NCBI RefSeq assembly: GCF_900091495.1
Contig: NZ_LT607413.1
Span: 1,302,001 to 1,366,000 of the forward strand
Direction: 5' to 3'
Length of the DNA stretch: 64,000 nucleotides
DNA from: Micromonospora echinospora
Lineage (GTDB): Bacteria; Actinomycetota; Actinomycetes; Mycobacteriales; Micromonosporaceae
Part shown: positions 10,017-39,647 of the stretch, piece by piece
Layout: each line of letters opens with the position of its first letter
How positions within the stretch are numbered: the stretch's first letter is position 1
Translations under genes and position numbers: made by a program
Notes under the pieces: generated by a model
What the model was told of the DNA's origin: nothing
Seen by the model: the letters and a program-made list of their open reading frames with translations, nothing else
The model's database searches: none

Positions 10017-10649
10017 CTAGAAGCGGGGCATCCCGCCGAACTGCCGGTCGCCGGCGTCCCCGAGCCCGGGCACGATGAACATCTGGTCGTTCAACCCCTT
10101 GTCGATCGAGGCGGTGACCAGACGCAGGGGCAGGCCGGACCGTTCCAGCCGCTCGATGCCCGCCGGCGCGGCCAGCACGCAGAGCACGGTGATGTCGGTG
10201 CAGCCCCGGTCGGCGAGCAGCCGGCAGCAGTGCTCCAGCGAGCCGCCGGTGGCGAGCATCGGGTCGAGCACCAGCACCGGCAGCCCGGCCAGGTCGCGCG
10301 GGAGCGACTCCATGTACGCGCGGGGCTCGTACGTCTCCTCGTCGCGAGCAAGCCCGACGAAGCCCATCGAGGACTCCGGCAGCAGACCGAGCGCGGCGTC
10401 GGCCATCCCCAGGCCGGCCCGGAGCACCGGCACCAGCAGCGGCGGGTTGGCCAGCCGGGTGCCCTCGGTGTCGGTGACCGGCGTGCTCACCGGGTACTTC
10501 TCCACCGGGAAGGAGCGCGCGGCCTCGTACACCAGCATGGTGGTGAGTTCGTGCAGCGCCGCCCGGAACGTGGAGGAGTCGGTGCGGGCGTCGCGCATCG
10601 CGGTGAGTCGCGACTGGGCGAGCGGATGGTCGATCACGTGTACGTCCAC
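10017..10649 (-). CDS. upp: Uracil phosphoribosyltransferase
   Basis: This 210-residue enzyme makes UMP from uracil and PRPP. The PRPP loop [11 protein letters not shown] and the uracil-binding C-terminus ([22 protein letters not shown]) are canonical. The GTG at 10647-10649 ([10 protein letters not shown]) gives the standard N-terminus. It is divergent from deoC across a short shared promoter region, which places uracil salvage beside deoxynucleoside breakdown. It is also the reference for the divergent paralogue at 34665-35276, which has lost several of these features. Confidence 0.96.
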
Positions 10650-26271: not shown

Positions 26272-26889
26272 TCAGGCCGGCGCGACCGCGCGCGAACGGC
26301 GCATCGTGAGCACGTACTCGACCAGCGAGATCAGCACGTGCTTGGTCGACTCCCGCTGCCGGGCGTCACAGGCCACCACCGGCACCTCCGGAGAGATCGC
26401 CAGCGCGTCCCGGACGTCCTGCGGGTCGTGGTACTGCATCCCGTCGAAGCAGTTGATGGCGATCAGGTACGGCAGCCGCCGGTGCTCGAAGAAGTCGATG
26501 GCCGCGAAGCAGTCGGCCAACCGGCGGGTGTCGACCAGGACCACGGCGCCGATGGCGCCCCGGACCAGCTCGTCCCACATGAACCAGAACCGCGTCTGAC
26601 CGGGTGTACCGAAGAGGTACAGGATCAGGTCACGGTCGATCGAGATACGACCGAAGTCCATCGCCACCGTGGTCGTCGTCTTGCCCGGCACCTGCCGGGT
26701 GTCGTCGACGCCCACACCGGCCGAGGTCATGATCGCCTCGGTGGTCAGTGGCGTGATCTCCGAAACCGAGCCGACCAGCGTCGTCTTGCCAACGCCGAAG
26801 CCACCGGCGATAACGATCTTCGCCGATGTCACGCGCCCGCTCGACGGAGTCGGCGGCCGGTGCGACATGTCAGAGCCTGCGAAGTCCAC
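26272..26889 (-). CDS. cvnD: Conservon GTPase (CvnD, MglA/Ras-like)
   Basis: This 205-residue small GTPase has P-loop GGFGVGKTT (29-37), the switch region LFGTPGQTRFWFMWDEL and, in place of NKxD, INCFDG. Conservon GTPases act with a histidine-kinase-like protein, a roadblock protein and a DUF742 protein in a membrane complex proposed to resemble eukaryotic G-protein signalling in Streptomyces. GTG 26889 is preferred to ATG 26868 because GGAGAGGG lies 6 bases before it; this gives a 20-base overlap with cvnC. It is the last gene of the operon. Confidence 0.92.
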   Translation of the reverse strand: MDFAGSDMSHRPPTPSSGRVTSAKIVIAGGFGVGKTTLVGSVSEITPLTTEAIMTSAGVGVDDTRQVPGKTTTTVAMDFGRISIDRDLILYLFGTPGQTRFWFMWDELVRGAIGAVVLVDTRRLADCFAAIDFFEHRRLPYLIAINCFDGMQYHDPQDVRDALAISPEVPVVACDARQRESTKHVLISLVEYVLTMRRSRAVAPA

Positions 26890-27280
26890 TCAGCACCCTC
26901 TCCAGCAGTTCAGTGCCCACCGCGTCATCGGAGTCGTCCAGGATGGTCGGCTCGTGCACCGCGACCAGGCCGTCCGTAGCCATGTCGGCAATGAGCACCC
27001 GGGCCACCCCGAGTGGCAGCTGCATCCGCGCCGCGATCTCGGCGAGCGACTGCAACCGTCCGTCACACAGCGCGGCGATGTACTGGTGCTCCCGGCCCTG
27101 ACCACCGTTGCCGTTGGCAGCGGTCCGACCGCGCACCGTCGTCTCGACGAGCGCCTCCAGCGCGATGTCGAGACGGGGACGGGTACGACCGCGGGTGACG
27201 GCGTATGGACGGACCAGAGCCCCGGTGGGCTCATCACGATCGACCACGTCGCCGCTCACCTCCTCCCGCGTACCCGCCAC
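26870..27280 (-). CDS. cvnC: Conservon DUF742 protein (CvnC)
   Basis: This 136-residue DUF742 protein has the family pattern LVRPYAVTRGRTRP, then a winged-helix-like core SLAEIAARMQLPLGVARVLIADM and the end LLERVLSGLRRL. It is the third member of conserved cvnABCD operons and is thought to bridge the roadblock protein and the GTPase. It starts with GTG about 70 bases after cvnB and overlaps cvnD. Confidence 0.92.
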   Translation of the reverse strand: MAGTREEVSGDVVDRDEPTGALVRPYAVTRGRTRPRLDIALEALVETTVRGRTAANGNGGQGREHQYIAALCDGRLQSLAEIAARMQLPLGVARVLIADMATDGLVAVHEPTILDDSDDAVGTELLERVLSGLRRL

Positions 27281-27349
27281 CGGCTCGCTCCGGTGGAACT
27301 CGTCGACTTTTCCGTTGTTGGTCCGCCGACCCTACGGTCAGCGCCCGTC

Positions 27350-27754
27350 TCAACCCAGCATTCCTGCGGCGGCGCGCGGCTGCGGGGTCAGCGCGTCGCC
27401 GACCCGGTCGACCAGCAGCGCCATTTCGTACCCGACCTGCCCCACGTCGCAGCTCCGGGCGGCGAGCACCGCGAACGACGACCCGTCCGAGATGGACATG
27501 AGGAACAGGAAGCCATTGTCCATCTCGACCACTGTCTGGAGCACCGCACCACCCTCGAAGCAGCGAGCCGCTCCCTGGGTGAGGCTGACCAGGCCGGACG
27601 CGATCGCGGCCAACTGGTCGGCGCGGTCACGCGGCAGGTCCCGTGACGACGCGAGGAGCAGGCCGTCCGCGGAGACGGCGACCGCATGCGCGACACCGGG
27701 CACCCGGTCGGCGAAGTTGGCCAGCAGCCAACCGAGATCCTGCGTAGTTGTCAT
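27350..27754 (-). CDS. cvnB: Conservon roadblock/LC7 protein (CvnB)
   Basis: This 134-residue roadblock/LC7-domain protein starts [19 protein letters not shown] and contains [20 protein letters not shown] and the strand [14 protein letters not shown], as in MglB-type proteins. MglB-like proteins act as GTPase-activating partners of MglA-like GTPases, so it probably controls CvnD. The start overlaps the end of cvnA by 4 bases, implying coupled translation. Confidence 0.93.
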
Positions 27755-30700
27755 CCTTCTTGCTCCTTCTGCCTGCTCCCGGCCAGGGGGCCTGAGCCAG
27801 ACTGCGAGGACTGCTGCCCACCCGGAGTCGCCCCCAGGCCGGACGAGTGGCTGTCAGCGTGGTTGCTTCGGCCGCGTTGCACGCCACGATGGTATGCCGA
27901 GAGAAGTCCGCGTACCGCCTCCGGCGTACGTCGTTGCACCGACGTCACCGGCTTCTCGATCCCGCCCGGCACGAGCTGCGCCATGGGCTTGCGCTTGGGC
28001 AGGCCGGTCTGGGTGGTCTCGACCACCGGCACCTCGTTGGCCGCGCTGGCGGCACGCCAGCCGTCGTCCGCGGCGGTCTGCCAACCGCCGGGTGGCTGCG
28101 GGGTGCGCCGGCCGGCGAGGCTCTCGGCGTACGCGGAACGGTCGCTCCCGTTGGTCGCCGCACCGTTGTCGTGCGACGCGCCTCCGGTGTTCGTTGCCAT
28201 CGGTGCGTTACCTGTCGTCCCTGCTGGTTCCTTGGCGGCCGGACGGCCCCGTTCGACTGCGGCGAGCTGCTGCGTCTGGGCAGCGTCCGGGCTCCCGAGG
28301 GTGACCCGGGCACCACCGGCGGCCGTCTCGTCGTTGACCGGTCGCCGAGTGCGGAACCAGGCGGATTCCAGCTCCCGGAAGATCGGCAGTTCCATCGTCT
28401 CGTCCGCGTACCGCTGCCGGTCGGGGACCGCCGGGGCCGGTGCGGGCTGCCCGGCCGGGCTGGGGTGGCCGGCCGTTCCGGCCGGTGACTCGCCTGCCGA
28501 GCGCGGCACGCGGGGCAGCTCGGTGGTCATGTCGAGCGCTGCGGCGAGCCGCTCGGGCACGGGCGGGGTGGGCGCCTCCCGCTCCGTTCCGGCCACCGGC
28601 GGCCAGACCGGTGGAGCCGGCGTGGCCGGAGCCGGTCGGGTCGGCGGCGCGGACATCGGTGGCCCGGAGACCGGCGGAGCCGACACGGGCGGGCCGGAGA
28701 CCGGCGGGGCCGGCGGGGCCGACACCGGCGGCGGGACCTGCGGATGGGCGGTGCGCGCCTCCGGGTTCGACGGCACCTGCCGCGGCACGGCGGGTGGCTG
28801 ACCGAACCCGGCCGGTTCCTCGTCACCGGTCGCGCGCCGCTGCGGCAGCGCGTCCACCTGCTGTCCGTTCGCCGGACGGGGCGTGAAGGCGTCGCCGCCG
28901 CTGGCCCGCACGTCCGCACCGGTCAGGTCGGACCAGGCGGGCAGCGGTCGGCCGGCGCCCGGCGTGCCGTTGCGCGGCTCCGGCTCGAAGGGCCGCCCAC
29001 CGAGGGTGACCTGGTTGCCGGAGCCTCCCGGACGGGGGGCCGGCGCCGGGGCGTTGCCCAGTGCCGGCAGCGTGCCGACGGTGGGCAGCGGGGTCGCTGG
29101 AGCAGGACCGGACGCGGGCAGCCCCGGCGGTTGCTGCACCCGGCCGGAGAGCGCACGTGGCACCAGGACCGTGGTGGGCAGGTCGACCTCGGCGACCGTG
29201 CCCCGCTCGGTGCCCGGCCGTAGCTCGACCCGGACCCCGTGCCGGGCGGCCAGCCGGGCGACCACGACCAGGCCCATCATCCGGGAGACCGCGACGTCCA
29301 CCTGCGGCGGCGTGGCGAGCCGCTCGTTCAGGTCGGCGATCTGCTCGGCGCTGATGCCGATGCCCCGGTCCTCGACGTAGAGCGACGCGCGGTCGCCGAC
29401 CCGGCGGGCCTCGACCATGACCTGGGAGTCCGGCGGCGAGAACGCGGTGGCGTTGTCGAACAGCTCGGCGACCAGGTGGACCAGGTCGTTGACCGCGTGC
29501 GCGGCGACCTCGATGTCCCGGTCGATCACGCCGAACTCGATCCGGGTGTAGTGCTCGACCTCGGACTGCGCGGCCCGGAGCACGTCGATCAGGGCGGCCG
29601 GCTGCCGCTGCACCCGGGTGGAGTCCGCACCGGCGAGGACCAGCAGGTTCTCGTCGTTGCGGCGCATCCGGGTGGCCAGGTGGTCGAGTTGGAACAGCTC
29701 GGCCAGCCGGTCCGGGTCCTCCTCGCCGCGCTCCAGCCGGTCGAGGTGACCGATCAGCCGGTCGACCAGGATCTGGGACCGGCGGGCCAGGTTGACGAAC
29801 ATGGTCGCCACGGAGGCGCGGAGCGCGGCCTGCTCGGCCGCCGTCCGGACCGCCTCCAGGTGGACGGCGTTGAACGCCTCGGTCACCTGGCCGAACTCGT
29901 CCTTGCTGCGCACCGGGAGCGGCTCGGCGATCTGGTTGGCGAGCTGCATCGGGGTGAGCTGGCCGGTGACCTTCGGATCCCGCAGCCGGGCCACCGCATG
30001 GGGCAGGCCGTACTGGGCGATGGAGAGCGCTCCCTGCCGCAGGTCGCGCAGGGAGCGGGCCATCGACCGGGCGACCAGGTAGGCGAAGAAGATCGCCAGT
30101 AGCAGCATGCTGAGCAGCAGGCCGGTCTCCAGGAAGACCCGGCGCTGCACGTCGGAGCGGAGCTGGTCGGCCAGGCCGATCACGTCGCCGTCGAGTTTGG
30201 CCTCCACGGTACGGATCAGTTTGGCGTTGGCGACCATCGCGGCGTCCCACTCGTTCGCCCCGAACGGCGCGCCGGCCATGCTGTCGCTGGTGTTGCCGTT
30301 GATCCAGCCGAGGTAGTTCTCGACCTGGCGCTGGTCCGATCCGGCGACGGTCTGCTGGTACAGCTCGGACTCGGCCTGGTTGGCGACCGCCTGGAAACTC
30401 TGTAGCGCCTGCTGCTGGCCGGTGCCGGTGGCGATGTAGTCGGTGCGCAACACCGGGCTCATCGACCCCTGGATCAGCGCCCTGTGCACCACGACCCGAC
30501 GGACCGAGAGGAACTCCTTGGCCCGGGCGCTGGCGGCCACCGCGCGCATCCGCTCGCTCAGGTCGGTGTCCCCGGCGAGCTGGCTGGCCGAGTCCCGGAT
30601 GTCCAGCAGGTCGTTGATCAGACCCTCGTAGGACCGGGCGGCGTCGGTGAGCGGCAGCCGGTTGTTGAAGACCTGGCTGCGAGTGCCGGGAAGGTCCTGC

Positions 30701-31131
30701 AGGCTCTGGTCGATCCGGTCGAGGACCTTCTCGAGGTTGCCGGGGAGCCCGTCGAGCTCGGCCCGCTGCCGGGAGTACGGCGCCCGGGCCCGGTCGACCC
30801 GCTCGTGCACGTCGGTGTAGGCCTTGTTGTACTGCTCCCGGGTCTGCGCGTTCGCCCCGAGCAACAGCACGGCGGCGGCCCGCTCGTCCTGGAGGGTGTC
30901 GACCAGCTCACCGGAGTGACCGGTGAGGTGCGCCAGGTCGCCGGCGCGGTTGGCACCGTTGAGCGTGTCAAGGTGGTCGATCAGGCCGTTGGTGCCGACG
31001 ACCACCGTGGCGATGGTCGGCACGATCATGATGAGGCCGAGCTTCGACCAGATCGGCATGTCGCGGAGCCGACCAGCCGGCCGGCGCATTCGCGACAGGA
31101 AGGAGCCCGCCGTCTTTGGTCGTTTGCTCAC
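27751..31131 (-). CDS. cvnA: Conservon sensor kinase-like protein (CvnA) with nitrate-sensing-type domain
   Basis: This 1126-residue membrane sensor has a first helix at about 28-50 ([19 protein letters not shown]), an extracytoplasmic NIT-type helical domain to about 335, and a second helix ([19 protein letters not shown]). A HAMP-like linker follows, then a GHKL ATPase domain ([29 protein letters not shown]). From about 640 the chain is Pro/Ala-rich and probably disordered, with short repeats of VS(A/G)PP type near 790-830. There is no clear phosphoacceptor His box, as usual for CvnA. The signal is unknown; nitrate is only a family label. Confidence 0.92.
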
Positions 31132-31958: not shown

Positions 31959-33038
31959 TCAGGAGAGCAGCTTCGCGTACGCCGGCTTGATCACGTCGTC
32001 GATGATCCGCAGCCGCTCGTCGAACGGGATGAAGGCGCTCTTCATCGCGTTGATGGTGAACCACTGGAGTTCCTTCCAGCCGTAGCCGAAGGCGTCCACC
32101 AGCAGCGCCATCTCCCGTGACATCGAGGTGCCGCTCATCAGCCGGTTGTCGGTGTTGACCGTCACCCGGAACCGCAGGTCGCGCAGGAGACCGATCGGGT
32201 GCTCGGCGATCGACGCGGCCGCCCCGGTCTGCACGTTGGACGACGGGCACAACTCCAGCGGGATCCGCTTGTCCCGCACGTACGCGGCCAGCCGGCCGAG
32301 CTGCGGACGGTCGTCGGTGAGGGTGATGTCGTCGACGATCCGTACCCCGTGCCCGAGGCGGTCCGCGCCGCACCACTGGATCGCCTGCCAGATCGACGGC
32401 AGACCGAACGCCTCACCGGCGTGGATGGTGAAGTGGAAGTTCTCCCGCTGGAGGTACTCGAAGGCGTCCAGGTGCCGGGTGGGCGGGAACCCGGCCTCGG
32501 CGCCGGCGATGTCGAAGCCGACCACGCCGGTGTCCCGGTGCCGGACGGCCAGTTCGGCGATCTCCTGCGACCGGGCGGCGTGCCGCATCGCGGTCAGCAG
32601 GGTGCCGACCCGGATCGGGTTGCCGGCCTGGGCGGCCAGCTCGCTGCCCTCGGCGAAGCCGGCGAGCACCGCCTCGACCACCTGGTCCAGGGTGAGGTCC
32701 TGTTCCAGGTGCTGCTCGGGGGCGAAGCGCACCTCGGCGTAGACGACTCCGTCGGCGGCCAGGTCCAGGGCGCACTCCCGGGCCACCCGGGCCAGCGCCG
32801 GTGCGGTCTGCATGACCGCCACCGTGTGCGCGAAGGTCTCCAGGTAACGCTCCAGCGAACCGGAGTTCGCCGCCTCGACGAACCACCTGCCGAGTTCGTC
32901 CGGATCGGTGCTGGGCAGCTCGTGGCCCACCTCGGCGGCCAGCTCGATGATCGTGGTCGGCCGCAGCCCGCCGTCCAGGTGGTCGTGGAGCAGCGCCTTG
33001 GGCGCCTGGACGATTTCTTCGTATCCGATTGCCACCAT
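31959..33038 (-). CDS. add: Adenosine deaminase
   Basis: This 359-residue zinc amidohydrolase converts adenosine or deoxyadenosine to inosine. It retains [10 protein letters not shown] (metal His pair), HAGEAFG with catalytic Glu, [17 protein letters not shown] and the metal Asp in [13 protein letters not shown]. These match functional adenosine deaminases rather than adenine deaminases or ADGF proteins. It is one part of the nucleoside catabolism set spread across this window. It is divergent from the radical SAM operon. Confidence 0.94.
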
Positions 33039-33164
33039 GACCCGACTCTAGTGGTCGGTGCCCACGGCACCGCGCCGAGCACGCCGGGCCACCCGCGACA
33101 GAGGTCAGCCCGGCCGTCCACCGCCCGGTGCGCCCGCGCGACCCCTGCCCGAGCGCACCGCCGC

Positions 33165-33193
33165 TTTCCAAAGAGTAATCGACAACCTACGAT
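33165..33193 (+). promoter_or_regulatory. Possible promoter of the radical SAM operon
   Basis: TTTCCA (33165-33170) and TACGAT (33188-33193) are spaced by 17 bases and resemble -35 and -10 boxes. Transcription would start near 33200, leaving a leader of about 175 bases before the radical SAM gene. Confidence 0.4.
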
Positions 33194-33211
33194 GGGTTGC
33201 ACTTCGAAGTG

Positions 33212-33373
33212 ATGGCTCACATCCATGATCGGCGACGCCTGGTTCCGCTGGTGACCGCCCTGACGACCGGACTATCGGGCGACTGCCGCCAGGCGCTTCC
33301 TGAACCCGTCGGACGGGGTCACGCAGGCCCGCCAATTTTCTGCGCCGCCTGCTGGCGGCGACGGGGGAGGTAG
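33212..33373 (+). other. Possible 53-codon leader ORF before the radical SAM gene
   Basis: An ATG frame starts about 12 bases after the predicted transcription start, runs through the leader and ends 2 bases before the radical SAM GTG. It would end with PPIFCAACWRRRGR. Its third-position GC is about 70 percent, far below that of neighbouring genes, and no strong ribosome site precedes it. It may therefore be chance. If real it could be a regulatory leader peptide or, less likely, a peptide substrate. A 7-base hairpin (33343-33349 with 33354-33360) and the ribosome site GGGGGAGG (33363-33370) lie at its end. Confidence 0.2.
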
Positions 33374-33375
33374 AA

Positions 33376-34668
33376 GTGTCAGAAACCGCGCTCGAAGCCG
33401 CGTTCGTCACACCGCAGTCGACCCGGGAGAGCCTGATCGGGGCTTTCAAGCCGCGGAGCTCGGAACTGCCGACCACCGGGTCGAGCTTCTTCATCCACCT
33501 CAGCGAGCTCTGTCCGGTCGCGTGCCTGCACTGCATGTACTCCTCGGACCTGCAACGCAAGTCGGCGAAGGACTCGTTGTCCCGGGACGAGCTGACCAAG
33601 GCGATCGATTTCATCAACGAATCTCGATCCCAGAAGCTCAACATCACCGGCGGCGGAGAGCCGTTCCTCAAATTCAACAGCATCCTGCGGCTGCTCACCG
33701 AGGTGACCACGCCGAAGATCGATGTCGTCAGCGCCGGCTACTGGGGCAAGGAGCCGACGCGGGCGAACACGCTCATCCGCCGACTCGACGCCGCCCTGGC
33801 GGACAACCCGGCCGGGCCCGAGGTCATCCTGCGGCTGAGCCTGGACCGCTACCACCTCGAAGCGCCCCGACCGGTACGGCTGGAGCACTACGGCAACGTC
33901 GCCCGGGCGTGGGCCGAGCAGCGGCCCGGCTTCGGGCTCGGCTTCCGCAGCATCGAGCCGGACTGGAACATCGTCGACCGGCAGATCGCCGAGGAGCTCG
34001 GGGCCCGTCTCGTCGACGTCAACGACTGGAACCGCAAGCTCGTCCTCCCCGACGGCCGGGAAATACCCATCACGTTCAACGTGTTCCGCCGCAGCGGCAA
34101 GGCCAGCGAGCTGGCGGAGGGCCACCACGACACGTCCCGCTCCATCCACGAGTACTACAACCCCTTCGAGACCGGCAGCAGGCGGCTCTCCCTGGCGACC
34201 ACGGTCAACGACGCCATCCGCGGCAACTATGCCGCGAGTTCGGGGGTGGCCGTCACCCTGAACTCGGACGGCACCTTCTGGATCTTCTGCGGCACCGCGC
34301 CGGACCGGCGGTTGCTGCTCGGCCAGGAGAGCTTCGCCGAGGCGGTCGCCACCTTCTTCCAGGACCCGATCACCCATCTGCTCGTGGAGGAGGGGGTGTG
34401 GTCCCTGTCGGACCTGGTGATCGAACTGGACAAGGAGGCGCACGCCGCGGCGATGGCGAAGAACGACGTCGCGTCGCTGGTCGAGGACCTGCTCGACGCC
34501 GAGGACGTCCGACTCGCGGTGACTCTGGTGGCCACCCAGAAGCTCCTGGCCGAAGATCGGGCCACGCTGGACGGGTCGCACCCGCTCGGTGCGGTGTTGG
34601 CCGCCCCGCACCGGGACCTGCTCGCCGAATGCCGGGCGCTCATCGCCGAACGTCGGGCCCGGCGATGA
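33376..34668 (+). CDS. Radical SAM enzyme of unknown reaction
   Basis: This 430-residue radical SAM protein has the cluster motif CPVACLHC (Cys46, Cys50, Cys53), the SAM-binding NITGGGEP (89-96) and a complete half-barrel. A C-terminal part of about 150 residues shows no SPASM cysteine set; only one Cys is seen there (FCGTAPD). GTG start with GGGGGAGG 5 bases upstream. It overlaps the next gene by 4 bases (ATGA). Nothing in the sequence fixes the substrate, but its three coupled partners handle a nucleobase-like compound. See the finding on this operon. Confidence 0.88.
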   Translation: MSETALEAAFVTPQSTRESLIGAFKPRSSELPTTGSSFFIHLSELCPVACLHCMYSSDLQRKSAKDSLSRDELTKAIDFINESRSQKLNITGGGEPFLKFNSILRLLTEVTTPKIDVVSAGYWGKEPTRANTLIRRLDAALADNPAGPEVILRLSLDRYHLEAPRPVRLEHYGNVARAWAEQRPGFGLGFRSIEPDWNIVDRQIAEELGARLVDVNDWNRKLVLPDGREIPITFNVFRRSGKASELAEGHHDTSRSIHEYYNPFETGSRRLSLATTVNDAIRGNYAASSGVAVTLNSDGTFWIFCGTAPDRRLLLGQESFAEAVATFFQDPITHLLVEEGVWSLSDLVIELDKEAHAAAMAKNDVASLVEDLLDAEDVRLAVTLVATQKLLAEDRATLDGSHPLGAVLAAPHRDLLAECRALIAERRARR

Positions 34669-35276
34669 TGCCGGCGGTGGAGATCGGCGACCCGGATCAC
34701 CTGTACGCGCGGATTCTGCGGGCCCGCCGACCGAGTGGCGAGATCCGGCGTCGCACCACCGAGTTGGGGACGCTGCTCGCCCGACACACGCGCGACTCCG
34801 TACGGACCTGGTCCGGTCCGGACAGCCGGGTGCTCGCCGTGGTCATCCTGCGGGGTGGCGCGCTGCTCTACCCCGGTTTCGTCGCCATGTTCGAGGACGC
34901 CGACTTCTGTTTCGTCGGCATGAGCCGCGACGCGCAGATGCGGTCCGTCCGGGCCGACTACATGACCCCCGTTCCGCAGGACGACTACGACGTGGTCATC
35001 TACCTGGACGGGGTGTGCGCCACCGGCGGCACCCTGCTGGAGACCCGGCGACTGGTCCAGAAGGAATGCGATGGCAGGTACGAGGTGGCGGCGGTGATCA
35101 GCAGTTCCGCGTCCGCGACCAGACTGCTGCGCGAGGCCGGGGTGGCCGTCGTCGGGTTGAGCCTGTACGAGTCGCTCAAGGGTGGCCTCGTCCTGCCCGA
35201 CCTCGGTGAACTGGACGCCGGTGACCTGCTGAGCGGTGTCGGGTTCCCGGGCCGGCAGGAGGAGCCGGAGCGGTGA
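34665..35276 (+). CDS. Divergent uracil-phosphoribosyltransferase-like protein
   Basis: This 203-residue type I PRTase fold protein resembles Upp (AVVILRGGALLYPG and the PRPP loop YLDGVCATGGTLLE, 113-126). The loop reads LDG where Upp has VDPM. The C-terminal base-binding part, SLYESLKGGLVLPDLGELDAG, lacks the canonical GLNDxG and [10 protein letters not shown] features of the true Upp at 10017-10649. It probably attaches ribose 5-phosphate to, or removes it from, a base other than uracil. Either ATG 34665 or 34668 may be used. Both ends overlap neighbours by 4 bases. Confidence 0.78.
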   Translation: MMPAVEIGDPDHLYARILRARRPSGEIRRRTTELGTLLARHTRDSVRTWSGPDSRVLAVVILRGGALLYPGFVAMFEDADFCFVGMSRDAQMRSVRADYMTPVPQDDYDVVIYLDGVCATGGTLLETRRLVQKECDGRYEVAAVISSSASATRLLREAGVAVVGLSLYESLKGGLVLPDLGELDAGDLLSGVGFPGRQEEPER

Positions 35277-36622
35277 GCCTTCCTCCGTCGACGAGCGACC
35301 GCCAGGGTCCTGCGGTGGACCGCCGGGAGACCGGTGAGCGGCCGGTGCCGGTCAGCCGGGCACCCGACCCGGAGGCCGACGGGCTGTTGCTGGCCGGCCC
35401 CCGGTTGGCCACCGGCGAGGTGGTCGACGTCCTGTTGAGCGGCGGGCGGATCGCTGTCGTCCGGCCGGCGGGCACCCCGGTCGCCGACGGAGTACCGCGG
35501 CTCGACCTCTCGGGTCATCTGCTGCTGCCGGCCCCGGCCGAACCGCACTCGCACTTCGACAAGGTGCTCACCGGTACGGTGCTGGGCAACCGGACCGGTG
35601 ACCTGGCCGGCGCGGTCGACGCCTGGTACGCGTACCGGCGGTCGGTGTCCCGGTCGGACGTCCGCGAACGGGCGCTACGCGCGGCGTACGAGTTGCTGGG
35701 CAGCGGGGCCACCGCGATCCGTACCCACGTGGACGTCGGTGTCGCCACCGGGCTGGGGATGCTGGAGGCGCTGCTCGAGGTGCGTGAGGAACTCGCCGGA
35801 CAGGTGGAGCTACAGGTCGTCGCCATGGTCGACCGCCCCGTGACCGGCCCCGACGGCGCGGGCAACCGGGCGATGCTGGTCGAGGCGGTACGGTCGGGCG
35901 CCGACGTGATCGGGGCGGCGCCCTACAGTCACCCGGATCCGCCCGCCTGCCTGCGGCTGCTGCTCGACGTCGCGGCGGAATTCGGTCGGCCGGTGGACCT
36001 GCACACCGACGAGACACTGGACCCGGCCGTCGACACCCTGAGCGAGCTGGCCGAGCTGGTGTTGGCCACCGGCTTCCGACCGGCCGTCACCGCCAGCCAC
36101 TGCGTCAGCCTGGGCGTACGCGGGGAGGAAGCCACCCGCGCGGTGGTCGCCCGGGTGGCCGCCGCCGGGATCGGTGTGATCACCTGCCCGTCCACCAACC
36201 TCTTCCTCCAGGGCCGGGGGCACGGGCACTCCGTACCCCGTGGCCTGACCGCGATCGTGGCGCTGCGGGCCGCCGGGGTGGCCGTCGCCGGTGCTGGCGA
36301 CAACATGCGGGACCCGTTCAACCCGGTCGGCCGGGGTGATCCACTGGAGACGGCGTCGCTGCTGGTCACCGCAGGGCACCTGGACCCCGCGGAGGCCTAT
36401 GACGCGGTCAGCGCCCAGGCCCGTACGGTGATGGGCCTGCCGGCCGTACGGATCGAGGCGGGTGCGCCGGCCGAGTTGCTGGCGATCCGGGCGCAATCGT
36501 TGACCGACGCGATCGCAGCGGCCAACATGGACCGAATGGTGATTCATCGGGGCCGGCTGGTCAGCCGGACACGGGTGGAACGCACTTTCTCGCCGCCGCT
36601 GCCGGCGGCGGCCCGGCGATGA
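35273..36622 (+). CDS. CodA-type amidohydrolase (cytosine-deaminase-like)
   Basis: This 449-residue metal-dependent hydrolase has the pattern of cytosine deaminase and isocytosine/N-isopropylammelide-type enzymes: PAEPHSHFDKV (His92, His94), HVDVG, DLHTDET, SHCVSL and AGAGDNMRDPFNP with the metal Asp. It most likely deaminates or opens a heterocyclic base. The GTG start overlaps the upstream stop in GTGA. The first 30 residues are extra relative to CodA and look disordered. Substrate assignment is inference from the family and its partners. Confidence 0.82.
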   Translation: MSLPPSTSDRQGPAVDRRETGERPVPVSRAPDPEADGLLLAGPRLATGEVVDVLLSGGRIAVVRPAGTPVADGVPRLDLSGHLLLPAPAEPHSHFDKVLTGTVLGNRTGDLAGAVDAWYAYRRSVSRSDVRERALRAAYELLGSGATAIRTHVDVGVATGLGMLEALLEVREELAGQVELQVVAMVDRPVTGPDGAGNRAMLVEAVRSGADVIGAAPYSHPDPPACLRLLLDVAAEFGRPVDLHTDETLDPAVDTLSELAELVLATGFRPAVTASHCVSLGVRGEEATRAVVARVAAAGIGVITCPSTNLFLQGRGHGHSVPRGLTAIVALRAAGVAVAGAGDNMRDPFNPVGRGDPLETASLLVTAGHLDPAEAYDAVSAQARTVMGLPAVRIEAGAPAELLAIRAQSLTDAIAAANMDRMVIHRGRLVSRTRVERTFSPPLPAAARR

Positions 36623-37878
36623 CGGCCACCATGTCCGCCGGTCCGGTGCTCCGGACCAACTGGAGCCGGGTGCTGCTCACCTATCTCGCCGGGGTGCTGG
36701 CAGCGGCCGCCCTCGGCAAGATCGGCCCGGTGTTCGGGCCGCTCCAGTCGGATCTCGGCCTCTCGCTGCCCGCCGTCGGCTGGGCGGCGTCCGCCATGAC
36801 CGGGGTCGCGGCGGCCCTGGGTCTGATCGGTGGCGTGTGGACCGACCGGCTGGGCGACCGGCGCAGCCTGTTGGCCGGGCTGGTCCTGCTCGCCGTGACC
36901 GGCGCCGCCGGGGCACTCGCCTGGGACGCGACGAGCCTGCTCGTCCTGCGGCTGTTCGAAGGCACCGGATACCTGCTGGTCGTGGTCGCGGCGCCAGCGC
37001 TGATCATGCGGCTGACCACCGGCGCCGACCGGGTGACCGCGCTCTCGGTGTGGGGGACGTTCATCCCGGTCGGATTGGCCGTCGGCTCGGGGGCCGGCGG
37101 AGTCGTCGCCGGTGGTGTGGGCTGGCGCTCCTGGTTCCTCCTGCTCGGCGCGGGCGTCGCGGCGGTCGCGGCGGTCGCAGCGGTCCGGCTCCCCGGCCCC
37201 GGCCGGTACGCCGGCCGGGCGGGACGAGCCGACGAAGGACCAGACCTGACGGTCGGGAAGCCGGACGGCCACACCGGCGTTCCGGCCACCCGTCCCCGGA
37301 TCCGGGCGGCTGTGCTGGCCCGGATACTGGCGCTCTCCGCCGGGTTCGGCGCGGTGTCGATGATCAGCGTGGCGATGCTGACCCTGCTGCCCACGTTCCT
37401 CTCCACCGACGTGGGTCTCGGCTCGTCGACAGCCGGGCTGGCCGTCGCGCTGGTCTCGCTCGTCAGCGTGCCCGGCGGGATCGTCGCCGGATGGTTGTTA
37501 CGCCGCCTGGCCGGGATCCCGGTGCTCGGCCCGCTGGCCCTCACCATGCCGCTCCTGGCCATCGTGATCTTCAGCGGAGCCCGGATCCCCGCCCTGGCCA
37601 TCGGGGCCGCCGCCGTGCTGCTGTTCGTCAACGGGATCCTGGTGGCGGTGGCGTTCGCCGCCGTGCCGCAGGTGGTCGACGGCGCGGATCAGCTCGGCAT
37701 GGGCAACGGGCTGCTGGTGCAGTTGGGCAGCTGCGGGTCACTGCTCGGGCCGCCGCTGTTCGCCGCCACGGTGGACCGGTTCGGCTGGGGGCCGGTGCCG
37801 GTCGTGGTCGGCGTCGCCGCCGTCCTCGGCCTGGTCCTGTTCCTCATCGCCCACCGGTCTCCGGCGCCCCGGCGGTGA
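36619..37878 (+). CDS. MFS transporter (CynX/NNP-like)
   Basis: This 419-residue protein has about 12 predicted membrane helices and the loop motif GVWTDRLGDRRS between helices 2 and 3, as in major facilitator proteins. A charged central loop (about 195-225) divides the two halves. It is the last gene of a four-gene coupled operon (ATGA overlap with the amidohydrolase) and so probably moves the substrate or product of that pathway; direction is unknown. The 3' end overlaps the convergent IMPase gene by 35 bases. Confidence 0.85.
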   Translation: MTATMSAGPVLRTNWSRVLLTYLAGVLAAAALGKIGPVFGPLQSDLGLSLPAVGWAASAMTGVAAALGLIGGVWTDRLGDRRSLLAGLVLLAVTGAAGALAWDATSLLVLRLFEGTGYLLVVVAAPALIMRLTTGADRVTALSVWGTFIPVGLAVGSGAGGVVAGGVGWRSWFLLLGAGVAAVAAVAAVRLPGPGRYAGRAGRADEGPDLTVGKPDGHTGVPATRPRIRAAVLARILALSAGFGAVSMISVAMLTLLPTFLSTDVGLGSSTAGLAVALVSLVSVPGGIVAGWLLRRLAGIPVLGPLALTMPLLAIVIFSGARIPALAIGAAAVLLFVNGILVAVAFAAVPQVVDGADQLGMGNGLLVQLGSCGSLLGPPLFAATVDRFGWGPVPVVVGVAAVLGLVLFLIAHRSPAPRR

Positions 37879-38683
37879 ACAGCCCGCAGAGCTGGTCGAA
37901 GGTGGGACGGTCGGCGGCGGCCAGCAGTGGCAGGGCGTTGCCGCCGGTGACCCGGTAGGGGGTGCCGTCAGCGGCACCGGCGCAGCCACCGGCCCGCTCG
38001 TACAGAAACAGCCCGGCCGCGTGGTCCCACGGTTTCTCCCAGCTCACCGCGAGCGCGTCGGCCCGGCCGGTGACCAGGTCGAGATAGCTGTGACCGATCC
38101 CGTCGCAGGGGACGACGGTCGCGCCGAGTCCGGCGAGCCGGTCGACCACCAACTGGTCGACCGGGGTGTGGTAGCGCGGATCGGTGTTGACCACCCGCAG
38201 CCCCGGCCACCCGGCCCCAGCGGGGACGGTGACCGGCCGGCCGTCCAGCCAGGCACCACCCGCCGACCCTGCCGAGGCGGTGGCCAACGTCCCGCTGACC
38301 GGGGCGTAGACCCAGGACGCCACGGTCCGTCCGGCCACGGAGAGTGCCACCATGGTGCTGAACCGGGTGCCGCCGGCGACGAAACCAGCCGTACCGTCGA
38401 CGGGGTCGATGATCCAGACCGGCGCCGGCCCGCCGAGCGCAGCCAGCACGGCCGGGTCGCGGGCGACCGCCTCCTCACCGACGGCGGTGGAGCCGGGGAG
38501 CAGCCGAACCAGTTCCTCGGTGAGCCGCTGCTCGGTCAGCGTGTCGGCGACGGTCACCAGGTCGCCGGGGGCCTTCTCCGCGATGCTGGCGGCGTCCAGC
38601 CGGCGGAACCGGGTCATCACCACCTCGTCGACGACCCGCCTGACCAACTGACCCACTGCGGTGAACCGGGCGAGATCCAGCAT
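37844..38683 (-). CDS. Inositol-monophosphatase-family phosphatase
   Basis: This 279-residue Mg-dependent phosphatase has the family motifs GEEAV, WIIDPVDGTAGF (metal Asps) and SWEKPWDHAAG. The family includes inositol, histidinol, fructose-1,6-bisphosphate and adenosine-bisphosphate phosphatases, so a 5'-nucleotide or sugar phosphate is possible. It is transcribed towards the MFS gene and overlaps it by 35 bases. That linkage suggests but does not prove membership of the radical SAM pathway, where it could dephosphorylate a nucleotide product. Confidence 0.87.
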   Translation of the reverse strand: MLDLARFTAVGQLVRRVVDEVVMTRFRRLDAASIAEKAPGDLVTVADTLTEQRLTEELVRLLPGSTAVGEEAVARDPAVLAALGGPAPVWIIDPVDGTAGFVAGGTRFSTMVALSVAGRTVASWVYAPVSGTLATASAGSAGGAWLDGRPVTVPAGAGWPGLRVVNTDPRYHTPVDQLVVDRLAGLGATVVPCDGIGHSYLDLVTGRADALAVSWEKPWDHAAGLFLYERAGGCAGAADGTPYRVTGGNALPLLAAADRPTFDQLCGLFTAGAPETGGR

Positions 38684-38759
38684 CGCCCGATGCTAGTGGT
38701 CGGCGCCGCGTCCGGCTGACCCGCTCAGCGTCGCCGGCCGACGACCCTAGGCTGACCGG

Positions 38760-39647
38760 GTGCACCCCGACCTGCTCCCCCACCTCCGCTGCCCGGTCTG
38801 CGGCCAGCCGCTGCACCAGGCCGACGCGGCGCCGCCCCGCGCCCTGCGGTGCCCGGCCGGGCACAGCTTCGACATCGCCCGACAGGGTTACGTCAACCTG
38901 CTGACGGGCCGGGCACCGCACGTCGGCGACACCGCCGAGATGATCGCCGCCAGGGAGGAGTTCCTGGCCGCCGGGCACTACGACCCGTTCTCGGCGGCAC
39001 TCGCCACCGTGGCCGCACGGGCGGTGCCGCGTCCTGTCCGGTCCGGCGACGGCGTGGCCGAACCGGTGGCGTACCCGGATCTGGTGGTGGACGCCGGAGC
39101 CGGCACCGGCCGGCACCTCGCCGCGGTGCTCGACGCCGTGCCGACCGCCGTCGGCCTGGCGCTGGACGTCTCGAAGCCCGCACTACGCCGGGCGGCCCGG
39201 GCGCATCCCCGGGCCGGCGCGGCCGTCTGCGACACCTGGGGCCGGTTGCCGCTGGCCGACGCCACGGTCGCGGTACTGGTCAACGTCTTCGCCCCGCGCA
39301 ACGGGCCGGAATTCCGTCGGGTACTCCGGCCGGACGGCGTCCTGCTCGTGGTGACACCGACCGCCGAACACCTGGTCGAGCTGGTGGACCGGCTGGGGCT
39401 GCTGCGGGTCGACCCGACCAAGGACGCCCGAGTGGCCGGCAGCCTCGCGAAACACTTCGAACCGGCCGGGCAGAGCACCCACCGGCACCGGCTCCAGCTG
39501 ACCCGGAAGGAGGTGCGGACCCTGGTCGGTATGGGGCCGAGCGCCTGGCACACCGACCCGGCCCGGCTCACCGCGCGGATCGCCACCCTGCCCGAGCCGG
39601 TCACGGTGACCGCCGCCGTCCGGCTCACCCACTACCGCCCGACCTGA
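38760..39647 (+). CDS. RlmA-type 23S rRNA guanine-N1 methyltransferase
   Basis: This 295-residue SAM-dependent methyltransferase has an N-terminal zinc knuckle (CPVCGQPL and RCPAGHSFD) and the start segment GYVNLL. It also has the SAM motif VVDAGAGTGRH and a late VNVFAPRNGPEFRRVLRPDG. RlmA(I)/RlmA(II) enzymes methylate G745 or G748 of 23S rRNA; the actinobacterial TlrB form gives macrolide resistance. RlmA(I) and RlmA(II) cannot be told apart here by eye. The start is GTG, divergent from the IMPase gene across 76 bases. Confidence 0.85.
   Translation: MHPDLLPHLRCPVCGQPLHQADAAPPRALRCPAGHSFDIARQGYVNLLTGRAPHVGDTAEMIAAREEFLAAGHYDPFSAALATVAARAVPRPVRSGDGVAEPVAYPDLVVDAGAGTGRHLAAVLDAVPTAVGLALDVSKPALRRAARAHPRAGAAVCDTWGRLPLADATVAVLVNVFAPRNGPEFRRVLRPDGVLLVVTPTAEHLVELVDRLGLLRVDPTKDARVAGSLAKHFEPAGQSTHRHRLQLTRKEVRTLVGMGPSAWHTDPARLTARIATLPEPVTVTAAVRLTHYRPT

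Follow-up and report, generated by a model that had tools for sequence, protein, structure and literature searches.

A five-gene block encoding a radical SAM protein and a divergent phosphoribosyltransferase in Micromonospora echinospora, a candidate cassette for an unusual nucleoside

The tubercidin pathway is described with the radical S-adenosylmethionine (SAM) protein TubB, the transferase TubE, whose use of phosphoribosyl pyrophosphate (PRPP) was shown in vitro, the Nudix phosphohydrolase TubG, shown in vitro with AMP as an analogue, and the major facilitator superfamily (MFS) protein TubI (PMC6112128). Uracil phosphoribosyltransferases (UPRTases) are described as SanR in the nikkomycin cluster (PMC2787493) and as MinD in the minimycin cluster, the latter with a protective role (PMC8724604). 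Here a block of five genes is characterized from a stretch of 64,000 nucleotides of Micromonospora echinospora (contig NZ_LT607413.1, positions 1,302,001 to 1,366,000, forward strand), hereafter the window. With modest confidence, the block is considered a horizontally moving cassette that would make an unusual base or nucleotide, dephosphorylate it and export the resulting nucleoside.

The inserted block and its recurrence

The first four genes of the block lie on the plus strand and encode a radical SAM protein (33376–34668, 430 amino acids, from the list of open reading frames, ORFs), a divergent phosphoribosyltransferase of UPRTase fold (34665–35276, 203 amino acids), a CodA-like amidohydrolase (35273–36622, 449 amino acids) and an MFS transporter (36619–37878, 419 amino acids). 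A phosphatase of the inositol monophosphatase family (IMPase; 37844–38683, 279 amino acids) is encoded on the minus strand. As described in an earlier note on this DNA, neighbouring genes on the plus strand overlap by 4 bases at each of the three junctions (the first two read in the sequence, the remaining junctions taken from ORF coordinates), and the MFS and IMPase genes are convergent, with a tail-to-tail overlap of 35 bases (37844–37878). The strong ribosome-binding site of that note is present as the purine-rich GGGGGAGGT (33363–33371, plus strand), 5' of the GTG start of the radical SAM gene; its possible promoter found no support in a sigma-70-type scan (0 found, shuffles mean 0.1), which does not reach other promoter types. 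All block proteins stay below the curated NCBIfam cut-offs, and thus none has a safe specific name.

The insertion site was compared with the adenosine deaminase regions of seven other genomes of the genus and with that of a second deaminase of the host (8 regions). The left flank, the adenosine deaminase gene (31959–33038, minus strand), and the right flank, a gene for an RlmA-like methyltransferase named by eye (38760–39647, plus strand), are conserved in the genus and stand outside the block. They adjoin in all seven same-genus regions, 64 to 2204 bases apart as counted between alignment ends, with the order of the surrounding genes kept, and searches with the five block proteins (E up to 1e-3) gave no match in any of these regions. 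Since the flanks are neighbours without the block in 7/7 same-genus regions, the five genes are a real unit, apparently inserted as one block. The IMPase, previously assigned by position only, is tied in by this comparison and by its recurrence in four of seven lineages described below. Its best match in each of ten other same-genus genomes is only 41–48% identical, and this lack of a close counterpart in the genus, together with the empty sites, indicates that the convergent gene came with the operon. A further IMPase paralog, 42% identical, is encoded elsewhere in the host genome. Adenosine deaminase, thymidine phosphorylase and the neighbouring nucleoside genes were rejected as block members, being present without the block in 7/7 relatives.

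The block is bracketed by an exact direct repeat of 11 bases, CTAGTGGTCGG, at 33048–33058 and 38693–38703 (both plus strand). The copies precede the starts of the deaminase and IMPase genes, respectively, by 9 bases, and no other exact copy is present in the window. With up to one mismatch the pattern occurs 3 times in the window against a shuffle mean of 1.44 (16 of 100 shuffles reach 3), and it is neither rarer nor commoner than in shuffles. The repeat was found after the fact, and only its position is notable, not its frequency. A TAGNNT motif lies 6 bases before the ATG of both the deaminase and the IMPase genes (minus strand) and overlaps the repeat copies. TAGNNT at that spacing before ATG is a form of leaderless start. 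The repeat may have been left by the insertion, or the two genes may have similar promoters.

A scan of genome contigs with the radical SAM protein yielded 23 loci. In eight of them (L006–L013) this protein is 36–64% identical and the phosphoribosyltransferase gene is directly downstream in every case. The other fifteen (L014–L028), at less than 30% identity and with no phosphoribosyltransferase match at E up to 1e-3, were rejected as the same system and dropped before the counts given below. Loci L014–L025 represent another radical SAM family, whose members are often larger; several of these loci carry an upstream gene for a protein of about 320–332 amino acids, by eye like the catalytic part of alanyl-tRNA synthetase, and an S51-peptidase-like gene.

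The cassette is rare and scattered. In searches of 101 relatives and of 396 genomes from the phylum, the radical SAM protein was found in the host alone. The genus of L006 holds it in 2 of 392 genomes (that locus included), the genus of L008 in 3 of 80 (two of them already known loci) and the family of L012 in 1 of 48, namely L012 itself; the E-value limits were not uniform across these searches. The radical SAM protein of M. pallida shares 96% identity with that of the window. The plasmid search for the cassette returned one record, a Rhizobium plasmid typed as conjugative (L030), on which genes for the radical SAM protein, the phosphoribosyltransferase, a membrane protein and the IMPase lie between transposase genes. 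Upstream of this copy, on the opposite strand, a Fic-family protein with a winged-helix end is encoded (L030:9978–11051).

Twelve loci were compared in detail (the window, L006–L013, L030, L037 and L038), spanning Actinomycetota, Pseudomonadota (Rhizobium) and Thermodesulfobacteriota (Geomonas). The radical SAM gene with the adjacent phosphoribosyltransferase gene is present in 12/12, the MFS gene in 8, the IMPase gene in 7 and the amidohydrolase gene in 5. All 12 were found via the radical SAM protein, so these counts show that such radical SAM proteins have the phosphoribosyltransferase, not that all such phosphoribosyltransferases have the radical SAM protein. The loci are not independent: grouping at a radical SAM identity of at least 70% gives seven lineages, of which four carry the MFS gene, four the IMPase gene and three the amidohydrolase gene. 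The fixed core is the pair of radical SAM protein and phosphoribosyltransferase. The set is found whole or in part in other genera and phyla, an outcome in favour of the earlier note.

Conservation may be stricter for the transporter and phosphatase roles than for the protein families that fill them. Where the MFS gene is missing, the radical SAM gene is preceded by a SemiSWEET-family gene in Janibacter (PF03083, 28.6 bits, cut-off 23.7), and Rhizobium has a protein of 145 amino acids with five hydrophobic stretches by hydropathy and no Pfam match; the Geomonas lineage has neither the MFS gene nor a substitute membrane protein. Locus L037, from the genus of Streptomyces prunicolor, has no IMPase match and encodes a histidine phosphatase (117.9 bits) beside the MFS gene.

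The phosphoribosyltransferase and the radical SAM protein

The phosphoribosyltransferase has the UPRTase fold (PF14681, 41.2 bits, over the cut-off) and shares with Upp the PRPP loop and the LR(A/G)G loop. It falls far below the Upp equivalog model TIGR01091 (48.6 bits, cut-off 208.35). In the PRPP loop, D115, G121 and T123 are invariant and T120 nearly so (24 aligned rows). The base hood reads PD(L/M/F)GxxDAGD in 28/28 aligned rows, the window's included (5 of 28 search hits were not part of this alignment). Compared with the Upp motif PGLGDAGD, PGLG has become PDLG with a two-residue insertion. The protruding arm of UPRTases, about 14 residues, is absent from the same 28 rows, one of which (P0017) has a Gly-Pro stretch at that place. 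UPRTases hold uracil in the hood largely via main-chain atoms, and for this reason the altered hood suggests, but does not prove, a base other than uracil. The earlier view that this is not an ordinary uracil enzyme is borne out by model score and motif; the claimed loss of the canonical uracil-binding residues is partly right, the hood motif being altered and another base suggested rather than proven. The normal upp gene, placed 23 kb away by the earlier note, is located at 10035–10637 (minus strand), about 24 kb from the block.

A protective function of the phosphoribosyltransferase, in competition with a toxic uracil-like product of the radical SAM protein, would have a precedent in the minimycin cluster, where MinD, the MinC phosphatase domain and the transporter MinT are described as a self-resistance set (PMC8724604). 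It is nevertheless rather unlikely here. The radical SAM gene is directly followed by the phosphoribosyltransferase gene in all 12 closer loci, the hood has left the uracil form that an enzyme raising uridine monophosphate is expected to keep, and the block holds no other enzyme able to join a base to a sugar.

The radical SAM protein belongs to the radical SAM superfamily by its CxxxCxxC motif (C46/C50/C53) and fold matches; it scores over the cut-off of PF13353 (28.6 bits) and under that of PF04055 (21.3 bits). The three cysteines are kept in 72 of 75 aligned rows, the other three rows being gapped there, and no auxiliary-cluster cysteines are conserved in this alignment. The sole QueE-type model matched gave a score of 16 (cut-off 260.1). 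In the fold search the peptide epimerase EpeE/YydG was the closest solved structure; viperins, MoaA, DesII and BlsE, radical SAM proteins acting on nucleosides or nucleotides, ranked below peptide-modifying ones, a ranking that excludes nothing.

This fold likeness would suit an EpeE-like epimerase acting on a ribosomally synthesized and post-translationally modified peptide, with the phosphoribosyltransferase and the phosphatase serving some other purpose. Such a role is highly improbable. EpeE holds two clusters (PMC8326336), against just three conserved cysteines in the present family; the YydG model is missed (30.1, cut-off 300), and no shared peptide gene was seen in the 12-locus comparison, which covered ORFs of at least 80 amino acids.

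A diverged version of the pair is found in Geomonas oryzae (L012), whose radical SAM protein is 36% identical to that of the window. It is followed by a phosphoribosyltransferase fused to a SAM-dependent methyltransferase (446 amino acids), a familyless protein of 182 amino acids and an nSTAND1/HEAT NTPase, and the run ends with a protein that weakly matches adenine methyltransferases. Upstream are a SIR2-type/short prokaryotic Argonaute pair and ZacA, ZacB and ZacC (PADLOC E 7e-75, 4e-111 and 2e-256), with a protein of 332 amino acids without match between the Zac genes and the run. The region L012:42–17465 is an antiphage defence island that holds a diverged radical SAM–phosphoribosyltransferase pair. 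A search for the fusion gave 14 rows, nine of which are phosphoribosyltransferase-methyltransferase fusions, the Geomonas one included (P0098–P0106), the last five being methyltransferases only. The run from the radical SAM gene to the methyltransferase-like gene may be an undescribed antiphage system.

The Geomonas neighbourhood, together with a weak match of the window radical SAM protein to the viperin model of PADLOC (22.4 bits), speaks for a viperin-like role of the core pair, which would make an intracellular anti-phage nucleotide, the phosphatase and the transporter only detoxifying it. For the block this is quite improbable. Among the window proteins scanned against PADLOC (four of the five) only the radical SAM protein matched, and weakly so; at 22.9 it scores far under the 180 required by the viperin family model (NF038283), the Geomonas protein is only 36% identical, and none of 73 pattern matches in viral contigs is a relative. 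An intracellular antiviral or signalling nucleotide is thinkable for the Geomonas variant. A broader and tentative idea, on the unlikely side, is that the pair is a general generator of modified ribonucleotides with two uses, the exported-nucleoside cassette with its phosphatase and transporter and, in Geomonas, where the phosphoribosyltransferase is fused to a methyltransferase and the pair would be coupled to the nSTAND NTPase, a base-first counterpart of viperin giving an antiviral or signalling nucleotide.

The remaining enzymes and the proposed pathway

The phosphatase matches the Inositol_P family with 126.9 bits (Pfam cut-off 27). The motifs GEE, DPxDGT and WDH are kept in the six aligned cassette members (L030 was outside this alignment) and also in the core-genome paralog, and indicate superfamily membership, not inositol specificity. 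A tree of 20 rows separates the seven cassette IMPases from the rest by a weakly supported branch (49/59), the branches being long, and a single origin is possible. The amidohydrolase belongs to Amidohydro_3 and keeps the CodA-type metal-ligand pattern when aligned to the solved relative 4r7w. It does not reach the cytosine deaminase model (236.5 bits, cut-off 403, NF005759), and 5/5 cassette members have FVD or MVD where 4r7w has FPQ ('afpq'), that is, Asp in place of a Gln which we take to contact the base. Only five of the 12 loci carry this gene, and it is therefore regarded as optional. The MFS protein matches MFS_1. In two genera a LuxR-type response regulator is encoded in the equivalent position, facing the MFS gene (L006:13048–13734 and L010:13055–13753); it is a possible extra cassette member.

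The unit itself, the empty site in relatives, the recurrence of the unit, its fold families, and the intact phosphatase and PRPP-binding motifs are directly supported. As to the product, all reactions, the order of the steps and the direction of transport, we infer the following. The radical SAM protein would make an unusual heterocyclic base, or alter a nucleotide; the phosphoribosyltransferase would join the base to PRPP, the IMPase would remove the 5'-phosphate and the MFS protein would export the nucleoside, with the CodA-like hydrolase as an optional trimming or self-protection step. Several observations weigh against this pathway. EpeE as the nearest fold of the radical SAM protein gives no pointer to a nucleoside substrate. 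Both uptake and efflux families occur among the NCBIfam matches of the MFS protein, none of which comes near its cut-off. No phosphatase was noticed among the neighbouring ORFs of L006, L007 and L010, read by eye without a domain search, and the run of L012 has neither a phosphatase nor a transporter. The weak cassette branch of the IMPase tree makes repeated recruitment possible.

The same gene set could instead serve salvage: an unusual base or nucleoside would be imported by the MFS protein, recovered by the hydrolase and the phosphoribosyltransferase, and modified for use by the radical SAM protein. CodA-like and Upp-like enzymes belong to families of the salvage type, and the block sits in a core region with adenosine deaminase, thymidine phosphorylase and a cytidine-deaminase-like gene (the last named by eye). 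These neighbouring nucleoside genes, however, belong to the core of the genus and occur there without the block. The hydrolase is without match in 7 of the 12 loci, a dephosphorylating enzyme counters the trapping of a salvaged base as nucleotide, and the ordinary upp is retained in 9/9 genomes. Salvage is thus unlikely. The interpretation in the earlier note is partly supported: the gene set, its recurrence and the non-standard phosphoribosyltransferase speak for a nucleoside-type pathway, base-making by the radical SAM protein, export by the MFS protein and the part of the amidohydrolase being proposed chemistry. For hydantocidin, considered as a possible product, no biosynthetic gene cluster was seen among the open-licence papers listed.

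If the export cassette is real, a mobile and self-contained pathway of four or five genes would lead to an unusual nucleoside, and its small size would make expression and testing easy. The phosphoribosyltransferase and radical SAM subfamilies are named by no curated NCBIfam model, and either could then serve as a new query in the search for nucleoside natural products. The Geomonas version would tie nucleoside chemistry to phage defence.

Neighbouring genes and comparison with known systems

Beside the insertion site, a genus-conserved set of four genes occupies 26272–31131 of the window, named by eye as sensor kinase, roadblock, DUF742 and GTPase. The host genome has a second adenosine deaminase, 91% identical (C1:6218468–6219526), next to genes that by eye resemble xanthine dehydrogenase and purine breakdown genes; ten of ten same-genus genomes searched have one deaminase only. 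A second deaminase as self-resistance copy was rejected, as the copy beside the block is by position the conserved one.

In favour of the earlier note, no link to a characterized pathway was found: no open-licence paper among the matches listed describes the five-gene set in its title or the start of its abstract, a search that left subscription journals and preprints outside, so that novelty is not proven. SanR and MinD are similar to the phosphoribosyltransferase of the block in being UPRTases sited in actinobacterial nucleoside antibiotic clusters; compared by description, not by sequence, they differ in that the available text names no radical SAM partner (PMC2787493, PMC8724604). The tubercidin pathway shows a like logic, with a radical SAM gene, PRPP-dependent assembly, phosphate removal and an MFS transporter, and the phosphoribosyltransferase and phosphatase of the block are of families other than those named for it, a distinction drawn from the description and not from comparison of Tub sequences (PMC6112128). 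A family search of the block proteins revealed neither a GTP cyclohydrolase nor a CPH4 synthase. Among the described pathways, the logic of the cassette appears to resemble most closely that of tubercidin, carried out by mostly different enzyme families.

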